The position numbers were made by a program, and so were the translations under genes. DNA of 64,000 bases. Origin: Verrucosispora sp. NA02020. GTDB taxonomy: Bacteria > Actinomycetota > Actinomycetes > Mycobacteriales > Micromonosporaceae. The stretch is taken from NCBI RefSeq assembly GCF_013364215.1, contig NZ_CP054923.1, positions 2,480,001-2,544,000 of the forward strand, read 5' to 3'. The stretch's first letter is position 1. Each line of letters starts with the position of its first letter. Positions 41,798 to 48,626 of the stretch are shown in pieces. The notes beneath the pieces were generated by a model, which saw only the letters and a list, made by a program, of their open reading frames with translations, did no database searches and had not been told where the DNA came from.

Positions 41798-42331
41798 GTG
41801 AGCTTGGATGACGAGACGCGCCCGGCGGCTCGGCTCACTGTCCTGGCCGGCCCATCCGGCGCCGGTAGGGAGAGTGTCGTCGAGCTGGTCCGGGCGCGTT
41901 CTCCGTCTGTGTGGACGCCGCTCGCGGTCACCACCCGGCCCCGCCGGGAGGGCGAGATGGAGGGCGTCCACCGGCACTTCCTCGCCCCGCGGGAGTTCGA
42001 CCGCCGGGTGGCCCGCGGCGAACTGCTGGAATGGAGCCGCTACGGGGCGTACCGGCGTGGCACGGAGCTGGCGCCGGTGCGTGACCGGCTCGCCGCCGGA
42101 GCGCCGGTCCTGCTGCCGCTCGACCTCGACGGGGCGCTGCTGGTCCGCGCGGTGGTACCCGACGCGCGACTCGTCCTACTCCATCCGCCCGGCCGCCGTC
42201 CGGGTACGGCCGTCCTGACGTCCTTCGACCGCAGCGTGTCGCACGACCGCACCGAGCGCGTGGTGGACGAGCTGGTAGGGTTGATCGGTTCTTCATTCCT
42301 GGCTTCGGCCCGGCCGCGTCCGCGCGGTTGA
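41798..42331 (+). CDS. gmk: Guanylate kinase-like protein with altered P-loop
   Basis: Guanylate kinase converts GMP to GDP. The position between mihF and rpoZ and several family motifs fit: [51 protein letters not shown] and VLLPLDLDGALLVR. However, the P-loop has Arg24-Glu instead of the invariant Lys-(Gly/Ser). The Arg-rich lid region that normally follows DVxGA is shortened to LHPPGRRPGTAVLTSFD. At 177 residues it is a little shorter than usual. The enzyme may be inactive or changed in function; a second guanylate kinase may exist elsewhere. I saw no frameshift. Confidence 0.75.
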   Translation: MSLDDETRPAARLTVLAGPSGAGRESVVELVRARSPSVWTPLAVTTRPRREGEMEGVHRHFLAPREFDRRVARGELLEWSRYGAYRRGTELAPVRDRLAAGAPVLLPLDLDGALLVRAVVPDARLVLLHPPGRRPGTAVLTSFDRSVSHDRTERVVDELVGLIGSSFLASARPRPRG

Positions 42332-42383
42332 GCGCCGGCCCCGCGTGCCACGCGGTCCGTGCGAAAGACGCAGAGGTTAATCC

Positions 42384-42647
42384 GTGGGATCCATCGCCAA
42401 CCCCGAAGGCATCACCAACCCGCCGATCGACGAGCTCCTGGAGAAGACGACGTCGAAGTACGCGCTGGTCATCTTCGCGGCCAAGCGCGCGCGTCAGGTC
42501 AACGCCTACTACAGCCAGCTCGGCGAGGGCCTGCTGGAGTACGTCGGCCCGCTGGTCGAGACGACCCCGCAGGAGAAGCCGCTCTCGATCGCGATGCGCG
42601 AGATCAACGCCGGCCTACTCACCGCCGAGCCGACCGACCAGCCGTAG
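42384..42647 (+). CDS. rpoZ: DNA-directed RNA polymerase subunit omega
   Basis: Omega helps assemble RNA polymerase by clamping beta prime. The 87-residue protein shows [37 protein letters not shown] and [15 protein letters not shown], as in actinobacterial omega. GTG 42384 has GAGG upstream. The next gene, coaBC, starts 13 bases later. Confidence 0.95.
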
Positions 42648-42660
42648 GCTCCGCGCGTCG

Positions 42661-43872
42661 ATGAGCGCCCGGATCATCCTCGGTGTCGGTGGCGGCATCG
42701 CCGCCTACAAGGCGTGCGAGGTGCTACGCCGGTTCACCGAGTCGGGCCACCAGGTCCGGGTCGTGCCGACCGCCGCCGCGTTGCGGTTCGTCGGCGCGCC
42801 GACCTGGGCGGCGCTCTCCGGTCAACCGGTCTCCGAGGACGTCTGGTCCGACGTGCACGAGGTGCCGCACGTCCGCCTCGGTCAGCAGGCCGACCTGGTG
42901 GTGGTCGCACCCGCCACCGCCGACCTGCTGGCCAAGGCCGCGCACGGCCTCGCCGACGACCTGCTCACCAACACCCTGCTCACCGCCCGCTGCCCGGTGG
43001 TGCTGGCGCCGGCCATGCACACCGAGATGTGGGAGCACCCGGCGACCGTCGCCAACGTGGCGACGTTGCGGGCCCGGGGCGTACGCGTCATCGAACCGGC
43101 GGTGGGTCGGCTCACCGGTGCCGACACCGGCAAGGGCCGGTTGCCCGATCCGGCCGAGATCTTCGCGGTCGCCCGCCGCGCGCTCCGCCGGGGCGTCGAC
43201 GCCCCCGCCGACCTGGCCGGCCGGCATGTCCTCGTCACCGCCGGCGGCACCCGTGAACCGCTGGACCCGGTGCGCTTCCTCGGTAACCGGTCCTCCGGCA
43301 AGCAGGGCTACGCGTTCGCCCGGGCGGCGGTCGCCCGAGGTGCCCGGGTCACGCTGATCTCGGCGAACGTCGAGCTACCCGACCCGGCCGGAGCGGACAT
43401 CGTCCGCGTCGGCACCACCGGCGAGTTGCGTGACGCCACGCTCGCGGCCGCCGTCGACGCCGACGCGGTGGTGATGGCGGCGGCTCCGGCCGATTTCCGT
43501 CCCGCGACGTACGCGCCTGGCAAAATCAAGAAGTCGGACGACGGCACCGCGCCCAGCATCGCGCTCGTGACCAACCCGGACATCGCCGCCGAGTTGGGCC
43601 GGAGCCGCCGACCGGAGCAGCTGCTGGTGGTGTTCGCTGCGGAGACCGGCGACGCCGAGGCCAACGGACGGGCCAAGCTCGCCCGTAAGCGGGCCGACCT
43701 CATCGTGATCAACGAGGTCGGGCCGGACAAGGTCTTCGGTGCCGAGACCAACGCGGCCACCGTCATCGGTGCGGACGGTTCGGTCACCCAGATGCCCGAA
43801 CAGTCCAAGGAGGACCTCGCCGACGAGGTGTGGGACCTGGTGGTCTCCCGGCTCGCCGACGGCGCCGCCTGA
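42661..43872 (+). CDS. coaBC: Phosphopantothenoylcysteine decarboxylase / synthase
   Basis: CoaBC carries out two coenzyme A steps: ligation of cysteine to 4'-phosphopantothenate with CTP (CoaB) and decarboxylation (CoaC). The 403-residue protein has the flavoprotein CoaC domain first (LGVGGGIAAYKACEVLRRF, the active His in DVHEVPHVRLG, PAMHTEMWEHP). The CoaB domain follows (VTAGGTREPLDPVRFLGNRS and NEVGPDKVFG). ATG 42661 is chosen because it begins the conserved domain; the frame is open upstream through rpoZ. Confidence 0.95.
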   Translation: MSARIILGVGGGIAAYKACEVLRRFTESGHQVRVVPTAAALRFVGAPTWAALSGQPVSEDVWSDVHEVPHVRLGQQADLVVVAPATADLLAKAAHGLADDLLTNTLLTARCPVVLAPAMHTEMWEHPATVANVATLRARGVRVIEPAVGRLTGADTGKGRLPDPAEIFAVARRALRRGVDAPADLAGRHVLVTAGGTREPLDPVRFLGNRSSGKQGYAFARAAVARGARVTLISANVELPDPAGADIVRVGTTGELRDATLAAAVDADAVVMAAAPADFRPATYAPGKIKKSDDGTAPSIALVTNPDIAAELGRSRRPEQLLVVFAAETGDAEANGRAKLARKRADLIVINEVGPDKVFGAETNAATVIGADGSVTQMPEQSKEDLADEVWDLVVSRLADGAA

Positions 43873-43919
43873 CCACGATCCACCTGTTGACCATCGACCG
43901 GCGCTCGGCGGTGAGTGAC

Positions 43920-43925
43920 TAGACT
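43920..43925 (+). promoter_or_regulatory. -10 element of metK
   Basis: TAGACT lies 33 bases before the first metK start, with TTAGGAG as ribosome binding site at 43948-43954. The second metK has no such promoter and must be co-transcribed with the first, unless it has one inside the first gene. Confidence 0.5.
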
Positions 43926-43958
43926 GCCGCGGAACGACGTCCACAACTTAGGAGTGCC

Positions 43959-45152
43959 GTGACACGCCGCCTCTTTACGTCCGAATCGGTCACGGAAGGC
44001 CACCCGGACAAGATCGCTGATCAGATCAGTGACGGTATTCTCGATGCCCTGCTCACTCAGGATCCGCATAGCCGTGTGGCGGTGGAGACTCTGATCACGA
44101 CTGGTCAGGTGCATGTGGCGGGTGAGGTGACGACGAAGGCGTATGCCGATATTCCGTCGATCGTGCGGGAGACGATTCTGGGTATCGGGTATGACTCGTC
44201 GAAGAAGGGTTTCGATGGGGCGTCGTGTGGGGTGAGTGTGTCGATTGGGGCGCAGTCGCCGGATATTGCGCAGGGTGTGGATAACGCCTTTGAGTTGCGG
44301 ACGGGTTCGTCGGAGTCGGCGTTGGATGCGCAGGGTGCCGGTGATCAGGGGATGATGTTTGGTTTTGCGTGTTCGGAGACGCCGGAGTTGATGCCGTTGC
44401 CGATCGCGTTGGCGCATCGGTTGGCGCGTCGGTTGTCGGCGGTGCGGAAGGACGGGACGGTGCCGTATCTGCGTCCGGATGGTAAGACGCAGGTGACGAT
44501 CGAGTATGAGGGTCTGCGTCCGGTGCGGTTGAACACGGTGGTGGTGTCGTCGCAGCATGCGGCGGACATCTCGTTGGAGTCGTTGTTGGCTCCGGATGTG
44601 CGGGAGCATGTGATCGGGCCGGAGTTGGAGGGCCTGGGGTTGGATGTTGAGGGGTATCGGTTGTTGGTGAATCCGACGGGCCGGTTTGAGATCGGTGGTC
44701 CGATGGGTGATGCGGGGTTGACGGGTCGGAAGATCATTGTGGATACCTATGGTGGGTATGCGCGGCATGGTGGTGGGGCGTTTTCGGGTAAGGATCCGTC
44801 GAAGGTGGATCGGTCGGCGGCGTATGCGATGCGGTGGGTGGCGAAGAACGTGGTGGCGGCGGGGTTGGCGGAGCGGTGTGAGGTGCAGGTGGCGTATGCG
44901 ATCGGTAAGGCGCATCCGGTGAGTTTGTTCGTGGAGACGTTCGGTACGGAGACGGTGTCGGTGGCGTCGATCGAGCGGGCGGTGTCTGAGGTGTTCGATC
45001 TGCGTCCGGCGGCGATCATTCGGGATCTGCACCTGTTGCGTCCGATCTATGGGCAGACGGCGGCGTATGGGCATTTCGGTCGGGAGTTGCCGGATCTGAC
45101 GTGGGAGAACACGGACCGGGCCGCCGACCTCAAGTCGGCCGCAGGAGCCTGA
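43959..45152 (+). CDS. metK: S-adenosylmethionine synthetase, first of two identical copies
   Basis: MetK makes S-adenosylmethionine from methionine and ATP. The 397-residue protein has all family signatures: [20 protein letters not shown] at the N-terminus, [13 protein letters not shown], and [18 protein letters not shown]. The start GTG has TTAGGAG upstream and a TAGACT promoter box. Codon use differs from neighbours: GGT, GAT, TAT, TTG and TCG are frequent, and C is scarce in the coding strand except near both ends. The protein is identical to the downstream copy except residue 2 (Thr here, Ser there). Confidence 0.97.
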
Positions 45153-46354
45153 CACAAGCGTGTCACGCCGCCTCTTTACGTCCGAATCGGTCACGGAAGG
45201 CCACCCGGACAAGATCGCTGATCAGATCAGTGACGGTATTCTCGATGCCCTGCTCACTCAGGATCCGCATAGCCGTGTGGCGGTGGAGACTCTGATCACG
45301 ACTGGTCAGGTGCATGTGGCGGGTGAGGTGACGACGAAGGCGTATGCCGATATTCCGTCGATCGTGCGGGAGACGATTCTGGGTATCGGGTATGACTCGT
45401 CGAAGAAGGGTTTCGATGGGGCGTCGTGTGGGGTGAGTGTGTCGATTGGGGCGCAGTCGCCGGATATTGCGCAGGGTGTGGATAACGCCTTTGAGTTGCG
45501 GACGGGTTCGTCGGAGTCGGCGTTGGATGCGCAGGGTGCCGGTGATCAGGGGATGATGTTTGGTTTTGCGTGTTCGGAGACGCCGGAGTTGATGCCGTTG
45601 CCGATCGCGTTGGCGCATCGGTTGGCGCGTCGGTTGTCGGCGGTGCGGAAGGACGGGACGGTGCCGTATCTGCGTCCGGATGGTAAGACGCAGGTGACGA
45701 TCGAGTATGAGGGTCTGCGTCCGGTGCGGTTGAACACGGTGGTGGTGTCGTCGCAGCATGCGGCGGACATCTCGTTGGAGTCGTTGTTGGCTCCGGATGT
45801 GCGGGAGCATGTGATCGGGCCGGAGTTGGAGGGCCTGGGGTTGGATGTTGAGGGGTATCGGTTGTTGGTGAATCCGACGGGCCGGTTTGAGATCGGTGGT
45901 CCGATGGGTGATGCGGGGTTGACGGGTCGGAAGATCATTGTGGATACCTATGGTGGGTATGCGCGGCATGGTGGTGGGGCGTTTTCGGGTAAGGATCCGT
46001 CGAAGGTGGATCGGTCGGCGGCGTATGCGATGCGGTGGGTGGCGAAGAACGTGGTGGCGGCGGGGTTGGCGGAGCGGTGTGAGGTGCAGGTGGCGTATGC
46101 GATCGGTAAGGCGCATCCGGTGAGTTTGTTCGTGGAGACGTTCGGTACGGAGACGGTGTCGGTGGCGTCGATCGAGCGGGCGGTGTCTGAGGTGTTCGAT
46201 CTGCGTCCGGCGGCGATCATTCGGGATCTGCACCTGTTGCGTCCGATCTATGGGCAGACGGCGGCGTATGGGCATTTCGGTCGGGAGTTGCCGGATCTGA
46301 CGTGGGAGAACACGGACCGGGCCGCCGACCTCAAGTCGGCCGCAGGAGCCTGAC
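43963..46354 (+). repeat. Tandem duplication of metK, two 1191-bp units
   Basis: Bases 43963-45153 and 45164-46354 are identical as far as I compared line by line, with period 1201. The units start within the second codon of each gene and end one base after the stop codon. The only coding difference I found is A at 43962 versus T at 45163. The ten bases between the units are unique. Confidence 0.93.
45160..46353 (+). CDS. metK: S-adenosylmethionine synthetase, second identical copy
   Basis: The product is a full-length, apparently intact 397-residue MetK. All motifs are as in the first copy and the only visible residue change is Ser2. It starts seven bases after the first copy's stop. The nearest Shine-Dalgarno-like AGGAG (45143-45147) is the 3' end of the first copy and lies 12 bases before GTG 45160, somewhat far for efficient initiation, so translation may depend on reinitiation. 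Copy two carries the same unusual codon use. Its end runs into the priA start region. Confidence 0.95.
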
Positions 46355-48344
46355 CGGCACGAGGAGTGACGACCGGCGACCCGCTGACGGGTCGCCGGTC
46401 GCTCGTGTCTGTGTCGACGTACCGCTGCCGCACCTGGATCGGCTCTTCGACTACCTGGTCCCGTCGGACCTCGCCGACGACGCGGTCCCCGGCGCGCGGG
46501 TGAAGGTCCGCTTCGCCGGTCAACTCGTCGACGGTTGGGTGCTGGAACGGGCCGACCGCTCCGACCACCCGAAGCCGGTGTACCTGACCAAGGTGGTCTC
46601 GCCGGTGCCGGTGCTGGCACCCGAGGTGGCACGGCTGGCCCGGGCCGTCGCCGACCGGTACGCCGGCAGCCTCGCCGACGTGCTGCGCCTCGCCGTGCCG
46701 CCCCGGCACGCCCGCGTCGAGAAGGAGATCCTCACCCCGCCCCCCGACCAGGCGCCGTCGGTCACCGAAGCCACCCCCACCCCGGAGACACCCGATCCGG
46801 GTGGGTGGCGGGACTACCCGGCCGGACCGGCGCTGCTGCGCGCCCTGACCGAGGGGCGGTCGCCCCGGGCCGTGTGGTCGGCGTTGCCGGGGGAGGACTG
46901 GGCGGCCCGCTACGCCACCGCCGTCGCCGCCACCGTGGCCTCCGGCCGGGGTGCGCTCGTGGTGGTCGCCGACGGCCGGGACCTGGACCGGCTCGACGCC
47001 GCGCTCACCGCCACGCTGGGCGCCGGGCGGCACGTCTGCCTCTCCGCCGCGTCGGGACCGGCCCGTCGCTACCGGGCCTTCCTGGCCGCCCGCCGCTCCA
47101 CCGCCCCGGTGGTGATCGGCACCCGGGCGGCCATGTTCGCTCCGGTGGCCCGGCTCGGTCTGGTGGCCGTCTGGGACGACGGTGACGACCTGCACGCCGA
47201 GCTGCGGGCCCCGTACCCGCACGCCCGCGAGGTGCTGCTCACCCGGGCCCAGCTCGACGACGCGGCGGCGCTGGTGGGCGGTTACGCGCGTACCGCCGAG
47301 GCGCAACTGCTGGTGGAGACCGGCTGGGCCCGCGAGGTGGTCGCGGACCGGGCGGTGCTGCGGGCGCGTACCCCGGCGGTCGCTCCGACCGGCGACGACC
47401 CGCAGCTGGCCCGCGATCCGGGCGCGGCGACCGCGCGGCTGCCGAGCCTGGCCTGGACGGCGGCCCGGGAGGCGTTGCGGGCGGATCTGCCGGTGCTGGT
47501 GCAGGTACCCCGTCGGGGTTACATGCCCTCGGTGGCCTGCCAGGACTGCCGGACCCCGGCCCGCTGCCCGCACTGTGCCGGGCCGCTGGCGTTGTCCTCC
47601 GCCGGTCGGCCGCCGGCCTGCCGCTGGTGCGGCCGGGTCGCCGCCGCGTACGCCTGCCCGCACTGCGGGGGACGGCGGCTGCGTGCCTCGGTCACCGGTG
47701 CCCGGCGTACCGCCGAGGAGTTGGGCCGGGCCTTCCCCGGGGTGGCGGTCCGGACCTCCGGGCGGGAGGAGGTGTTGGCCGACGTGCCCGGCGGCGCCGG
47801 ACTGGTGATCGCCACGCCGGGTGCCGAACCGGTCGCCGAAGGTGGGTACGGCGCGGTGCTGCTGCTGGACACCTGGGCCATGCTCACCCGGGCCGACCTG
47901 CGGGCGGGGGAGGAGGCGCTGCGCCGGTGGGCGGCGGCTGCCGCGCTGGCCCGGCCGGCGGCGGCGGGCGGCCGGGTGGTGGTGGTCGCCGACGGCGCGT
48001 TGGCGCCGGTGCAGGCGTTGCTGCGGTGGGATCCGGGCTGGTTCGCCGCCCGGGAGTTGGCCGAGCGGCGGGAGTTGGGCTTCCCGCCCGCGATGCGGAT
48101 GGCCAGCGTGACCGGGCTGCCGGTGGCGGTGGCCGACCTGCTGGCGCAGGCGCGGCTGCCGGAGGAGGCGGAACTGCTCGGCCCGGTGCCGGCCGACGGC
48201 GACCGGGAACGGATGCTGGTCCGGGTGCCCCGGGCGCGGGCGGCGGCCATGGCCGAGGCGTTGCACGCGGCGGCGGGGTCGCGCACCGCCCGCAAGGCCG
48301 CCGAACCGGTACGCCTCCAGGTCGACCCGCTCACGCTGTTCTGA
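46302..48344 (+). CDS. priA: PriA-like primosomal protein N', probably without helicase activity
   Basis: PriA reloads the replisome at stalled forks. The protein has the N-terminal DNA-binding domain ([20 protein letters not shown]) and two zinc-binding clusters ([18 protein letters not shown] and CPHCGG at about residues 413-454). The actinobacterial form lacks recognisable Walker A and DExH helicase motifs, and I see none here. The start is unclear: GTG 46302 lies 52 bases inside metK, and CTG 46350 overlaps its stop as CTGA. No other normal start is in frame before the conserved region. Confidence 0.85.
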
Positions 48345-48458
48345 CGCCGAACGGTGACGCTGAGTGACTGTCGGTCGCCGGATGTGACCTGATCCTCGCG
48401 TGTGGTGTCGACGCGCCGCTCCCGAGTTGCGCGCGCGGGAGTCCCGTGGTCAAGGTGG

Positions 48459-48464
48459 TAGCAT
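48459..48464 (+). promoter_or_regulatory. -10 element upstream of the kinase/ParB-like gene
   Basis: TAGCAT fits the TANNNT pattern. Transcription would begin near the ATG at 48473, which opens a 26-codon frame ending at 48553, followed by the main gene at 48627. A small hairpin (CACGAC with GTCGTG) lies within that short frame. Confidence 0.4.
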
Positions 48465-48626
48465 CGCCCGTCATGCCGGGGCGCACGACGAGTCCAGGTC
48501 GTGACGCGGCGTCAGGCACGTGGAGCCGGAGTTGTCGCGGGTCGGCGTGGTGACGGCGGGACCGGGTCGGTCCGGCGCGATATCGATGACGATCCAGTAC
48601 AGCCGGTGATCAGGGGTGGACCAGTC

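Follow-up and report, generated by a model that had tools for sequence, protein, structure and literature searches.

Concerted evolution of metK at two distant loci, with a keto/amino skew that may reflect strand-asymmetric biased gene conversion

What history lies behind two adjacent metK genes that differ at a single base? The window, i.e. the whole 64,000-nt stretch of DNA that was analysed, stems from a Micromonospora genome labelled G000 in all genome comparisons. It contains metK copy A at 43959..45152 and copy B at 45160..46353, both on the + strand and each encoding 397 amino acids from a GTG start. The sole difference between the coding sequences is at nucleotide 4, where A in copy A (codon 2 ACA, Thr2) is replaced by T in copy B (TCA, Ser2). 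Self-alignment of the window places an exact 1191-bp repeat at 43963..45153 and 45164..46354 (+ strand), with a period of 1201, and this length excludes chance identity. Copy B is a metK equivalog (TIGR01034, 552.1 bits versus a cut-off of 309.4) that has all three Pfam domains of metK (PF00438, PF02772, and PF02773), and copy A differs from it at residue 2 only. The original prediction of two complete metK genes with one change past the start codon agrees with these coordinates, the model match, and the alignment of the copies. The order at this native locus is coaBC - metK - priA, with coaBC (dfp) upstream at 42661..43872 (+; the start codon is our choice) and priA downstream at 46386..48344 (+; provisional start, best NCBIfam model 975.7 bits, just below the cut-off of 980). 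A search of 42000-48500 for inverted pairs (20 nt or longer) that could be the terminal repeats of a mobile element flanking the metK unit found none.

The two copies are separated by the 6-bp linker ACAAGC (45154..45159, +), which equals the 5′ flank of metK at a second locus, both in G000 and in G025, its closest relative by metK. The second codon of copy A is also found in the native metK genes of G119, G139, G078, G003, and G033, and that of copy B in both second-locus copies. The junction includes a palindrome, TGACAC-AAGC-GTGTCA (window 45147-45175), which can form a fold covering the copy B start codon; we rejected it as a meaningful element, as it is probably a chance product of the start and stop sequences. 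The start of copy B lies 7 nt past the stop of copy A, and translational coupling would be possible.

The original prediction understates the case, as the genome contains four metK copies, not two. The second tandem pair is located at C1:5054370-5056764, 2.5 Mb from the window pair and downstream of the gene for a molybdopterin-dehydrogenase FAD subunit. Three copies are identical, and the fourth, copy A, differs by one base. The motif ACAAGC precedes both second-locus copies, and at the native locus copy B only. G025, the assembly of which is one contig containing both loci, has one metK at each of the same two sites, and synteny with G000 at both loci is 92.8-95.7% over pieces of at least 1 kb, with gaps at the second locus. 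The G025 copies differ from each other at 2 of 1188 positions and from G000 at 54 of 1188, and the native copy of G025 carries the codon 2 of the second locus (TCA).

A separate metK pair occurs in G013, G033, G050, G072, and G128, where a second metK is found at a distance of 20-23 kb, inverted relative to the first, with flanks that are orthologous across the five species (84-92% identity). The copies within these pairs differ at 54, 3, 48, 2, and 0 positions, respectively. In G000/G025 as well as in the five-species group, paralogs within a genome are closer than orthologs between species. Near identity within genomes combined with differences between species argues for ectopic gene conversion, and, on these sequence comparisons, metK at the two distant loci is a case of concerted evolution by that process. 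Because the loci are common to G000 and G025, they do not represent merely a recent duplication, and the two-locus family is evidently older than the G000/G025 split, its members having been kept alike by conversion. The earlier suggestion of a very recent duplication thus holds for the tandem step, as the search for tandem metK genes in relatives found one copy per site and no tandem in G025, and fails for the two-locus family, which predates the split. The alternative offered at the same time, gene conversion, is favoured by the distances between the G025 copies and G000.

The observation that the repeat unit has gene-exact boundaries was correct, and it can be explained because homology between the loci does not extend beyond the gene, and the linker is the second-locus 5′ flank. 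The linker also suggests that the tandem probably arose at the second locus and was then copied to the window site, which is the simplest order. The second-locus metK of G000 would have duplicated in tandem, with that locus's own 5′ flank becoming the linker. Recombination inside metK would then have copied the array to the native locus, where copy A would have retained the native 5′ end and copy B would have ended up with the foreign linker and Ser2.

For comparison, 160 Micromonospora genomes were searched for metK, and 33 of them had more than one match. Both copies were aligned in 22 of the 33; the pair set leaves out the second copies of G142 and G144 (71-72% identity), the broken copy of G116, and the pairs of G002, G007, G038, G066, G076, G090, G091, and G148. 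The native metK was read in 107 of the 160 genomes, i.e. nine skewed or suspect genes, 43 controls (28 from single-match genomes and 15 with a diverged second copy), 40 later-drawn genes with one metK match each, which were chosen by us and not at random, and 15 further ones; G147, which had no match, is among the 53 genomes left out. Genes from other genera were scored against the Micromonospora baseline, not against that of their own genus. Two genomes showed peculiarities. G147 (120 contigs, rated 100% complete) is the sole Micromonospora genome of the 160 without a metK match, at E 1e-100 and also at 1e-20, perhaps because a repeat collapsed and left a gap in the assembly. The second metK of G311 (L112, C1:7534454-7535632) is 99.7% identical to the first but contains a TGA in frame, which may point to a recently formed pseudogene or to a sequencing error.

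The third codon positions of G000 metK have an unusual composition, i.e. A 0.015, C 0.14, G 0.61, and T 0.24, compared with means of C 0.55, G 0.41, and T 0.03 for the 43 control natives. We define K3 as the share of G and T at third positions, with G and T as keto (K) and A and C as amino (M) bases. K3 is 0.85 for G000 metK versus 0.38-0.55 for the controls. The third-position GC is 0.75 versus a control mean of 0.96, a fall in place of the rise that characterizes GC-biased gene conversion. The keto-rich zone covers approximately 44040..45120 (+) in copy A, where about the first 27 and the last 10 codons are not keto-rich, and approximately 45241..46321 (+) in copy B. Within a 503-kb sample of G000, metK is the most skewed window (0.83; the next value is 0.53 in size), and none of nine other skewed windows opened in that sample and judged by eye shows metK-like usage.

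Among the 22 aligned pairs, all six with at least 98% identity are skewed, five toward keto bases (G000, G025, G114, G033, and G072) and one toward amino bases (G128). The skew z of these natives is 5.7 to 11.1 in size relative to the 43 controls; the z-scores are descriptive only, because the nine skewed or suspect genes were picked after the pair data had been seen. In G128, K3 is 0.07, and 37 of the 43 Glu, Lys, and Gln codons are GAA, AAA, or CAA. The G050 pair (96% identical) is keto, and the G013 pair (95.5% identical) is split into keto and amino parts. G119 metK has a K3 of 0.68 and is counted apart, its second copy being cut by a contig end (372/378). Strong skew was found in none of the 40 later-drawn natives from single-match genomes (K3 0.37-0.50), and the natives of the 15 further relatives have values of 0.39-0.56. 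The highest K3 values among the other natives, 0.56 in G073 and 0.55 in G065, are mildly keto.

The substitutions relative to the control consensus are directional. Synonymous changes in G000 comprise 189 M>K and 5 K>M, and those in G128 129 K>M and 8 M>K. At positions 1-2 of codons with a changed amino acid, 15 changes lead to keto and 2 to amino bases in G000, and 30 to amino and 3 to keto bases in G128; the ratios are weaker in other skewed genes (e.g. 10:5 in G114 and 4:2 in G119) and about even in three controls. Between the metK genes of G000 and G128, 18% of third positions are the same and protein identity is 87%; the genes of G033 and G128, which have the locus pair in common, match at 37%, again with proteins 87% identical. 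Such a directional excess in converting sequences, seen in the six of six pairs, is the pattern of biased conversion. As judged from composition and substitutions, conversion appears to push one strand to G/T or to A/C, enough to alter amino acids. Replication strand was rejected as the cause of the sign, as the copies are arranged alike in genomes with keto (G033, G072) and with amino (G128) skew.

In the homogenised Micromonospora pairs, the skew appears for the most part to keep to the region in which the copies are identical. The G013 copies differ at offsets 3-14, 473-701, 905, and 929, and agree fully at 15-472 and almost fully from 702. Of these two stretches, the left one is keto (+0.50 over the baseline) and the right one amino (−0.67), and the diverged middle is neutral. 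In a pair of Streptomyces sp. NBC_01306, with copies 5.3 Mb apart, the first 280 codons have 83 M>K and 6 K>M changes, compared with 12 and 9 after codon 280, the part that contains 17 of the 25 differences between the copies. A lean toward M>K is also seen in the Streptomyces natives taken together (1437:832, up to 3.9:1 in one). A bin test was performed with 10 pairs chosen as partly identical. The skew was greater in identical than in diverged bins in eight of them, and the mean correlation of 0.26 was reached by 0 of 2000 within-pair rotations. The contrast is absent in G280 and reversed in G327, and it concerns one or two bins only in G129, G246, and G317. In keto-rich metK genes the skew does not extend to the first 20-30 or the last ten codons, which is expected because homology ends there; G128, however, is amino to the last codons. 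The pair of G257, from another genus of the family (L117, L118), is 93% identical with both copies keto-shifted along almost the whole gene, and is perhaps an old converting pair that is now diverging.

Several near-identical pairs are unskewed. No skew was found in the metK pairs of G311 (4 differences), G327 (24), and Streptomyces G548_3/4 (0) or in the tuf pair of G356 (8 of 1182 positions), and these pairs may be young. EF-Tu was considered as a second skewed family and rejected; 197 genomes of the class were searched, 13 were followed up, and four pairs were aligned, the sole near-identical one being that of G356. Streptomyces sp. NBC_01306 has five metK genes, of which L259 and L260 (contigs C1 and C4) are mutually identical and unskewed. 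The metK of Streptomyces sp. DH12 (L200) resembles converting copies in its keto profile; a single locus was seen, and a second copy would be predicted.

Which process could favour bases along this axis? The non-canonical mismatch repair enzyme NucS/EndoMS of M. smegmatis acts only on G-G, G-T, and T-T mismatches, with an effect of more than 500-fold, C-C being untested in vivo (PMC11551767). This substrate set comprises the keto-keto mismatches, i.e. it lies on the axis of the skew, and NucS is therefore proposed as the cause. In the nine genomes tested, nucS is present in all and MutS_V in none, although the presence of nucS alone does not discriminate, because the nine include G030, a control without skew. 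NucS inhibits homeologous recombination (PMC5290159). A 2026 preprint suggests that in mycobacteria it is less active during recombination, and makes a general mention of asymmetric repair among paralogs that recombine (PMC13061034).

The invading strand would decide whether any given keto/amino difference between two copies becomes a keto-keto or an amino-amino mismatch in the heteroduplex; within-class differences would produce neither. An invading 3′ tail with a keto base opposite a keto donor base would be cut and recopied from the donor. Amino-amino mismatches would be left alone, and the net effect would be a loss of keto bases from the invading strand. Tails entering from the left, being bottom strand, would make the coding strand G/T-rich, and entry from the right would make it A/C-rich; this is the least secure step. 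The direction rule fits both sides of G013, NBC_01306, and the left of G050. It is unproven, because the right-hand identical stretches of G312 (+0.35) and G265 (+0.41), from other genera, are keto, not amino; that of G050 reaches only +0.14, and an amino right-hand stretch was seen in G013 only. A toy simulation that assumes the rule yielded K values of 0.99 or 0.02 versus 0.50 without bias, which shows sufficiency only.

The alternatives differ in what they leave unexplained. An assembly artefact as the source of the tandem is quite improbable. Four near-identical 1.2-kb copies are hard to assemble, and the tandem is known from one assembly, but the CTGAC-ACAAGC-GTGTCA junction would need real DNA, as collapse or expansion should not invent an ACAAGC junction, and G000 consists of two contigs, one of 7.2 Mb. 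The two-locus result would be untouched in any case, because G025 shows both loci independently. A recent segmental duplication that left no time to diverge, with a composition unrelated to it, would agree with the lack of a tandem in G025 and with the unskewed near-identical pairs described above. For the two-locus family this reading is contradicted by G025, which has both loci with near-identical copies that are nevertheless 54/1188 from G000, and by the orthologous second pair in five species, each homogenised in whole or part; it holds for the tandem step only, and as a full explanation we regard it as scarcely credible. Under horizontal transfer, the metK body would have come from a donor with an unusual composition and been converted onto the native copy afterwards, in line with a third-position GC of 0.75 versus 0.83-0.96 in the eight scored neighbour genes. 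However, a strand asymmetry with T 0.24 and A 0.015 is not a usual genome-wide bias, G128 is a mirror image, the sign flips inside G013, and the protein stays close to the genus, all of which makes a foreign donor very improbable.

Two further explanations concern the skew itself. Selection on codons or mRNA, for expression or structure, could have made the odd third positions, as metK is likely highly expressed and its duplication might mark a demand for SAM. This is as hard to credit as a recent duplication, because related species are skewed in opposite directions, changed codons show the axis at positions 1-2 as well, and Leu is encoded by TTG in 20 of 34 cases in G000 versus 0-2 in the three controls listed; moreover, the skewed zone tracks the identical stretches in G013 and NBC_01306, and strong skew is absent from the 40 later-drawn single-copy genes. 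Another strand-sensitive recombination step in place of NucS, e.g. pairing in which RecA favours G/T-rich strands, is unlikely, though less so than the other four alternatives. RecA/Rad51 prefer G/T-rich DNA, i.e. the same base axis, keto is the commoner direction, and the left/right rule that G312 and G265 break would not be needed. On the other hand, if the tails enter from the gene ends, as the diverged middle of G013 suggests, the invading strands of G013 would be amino-rich, the opposite of the preference, and a pairing preference by itself does not choose the allele that is kept. We therefore regard, with modest confidence, ectopic conversion, a tandem copied from the second locus, and a NucS-driven, strand-asymmetric biased conversion as the best joint explanation, with the origin of the tandem and the cause of the bias as its inferred parts.

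Biased gene conversion is usually treated as a GC effect, and its mechanism in bacteria is debated. The metK skew resembles GC-biased gene conversion in that some bases are systematically favoured, and differs from it in the keto/amino axis, in its strand asymmetry, and in a sign that varies between species and within one gene. In contrast to G000 metK, E. coli tufA, which we take to be a converting gene in a MutS bacterium, has no keto/amino skew (0.01; fusA 0.06), a weak control because of codon selection. The tufA/tufB genes are likewise dispersed, near-identical housekeeping copies that are homogenised within the genome, and metK is absent from the main text of the survey of 26 concerted prokaryotic genes that describes them (PMC6053082). 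In the literature searched, with subscription literature mostly outside it, we found no report of concerted evolution of metK in Micromonospora, of a keto/amino conversion bias, or of a directional effect of NucS on base composition via conversion.

For bacteria with NucS in place of MutS, we tentatively suggest, at slightly less than an even chance, that long-recombining paralogs are pushed toward G/T on one strand and toward A/C on its complement; the invading strand would set the sign, and the push would be strong enough to alter the protein. If so, past conversion could be read from the skew in the genomes of actinobacteria, and duplicates with unusual codon usage in this group would not have to be of foreign origin or under selection for codons. 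Both the keto/amino axis and the asymmetry between strands point to a single enzyme whose substrates are known, which makes the path from mismatch chemistry to genome composition directly testable. The skew may also mislead trees: in the nucleotide tree, G033, G050, and G072 cluster with further keto-rich genes and are separated from G013 and G128, with which they share the locus pair.
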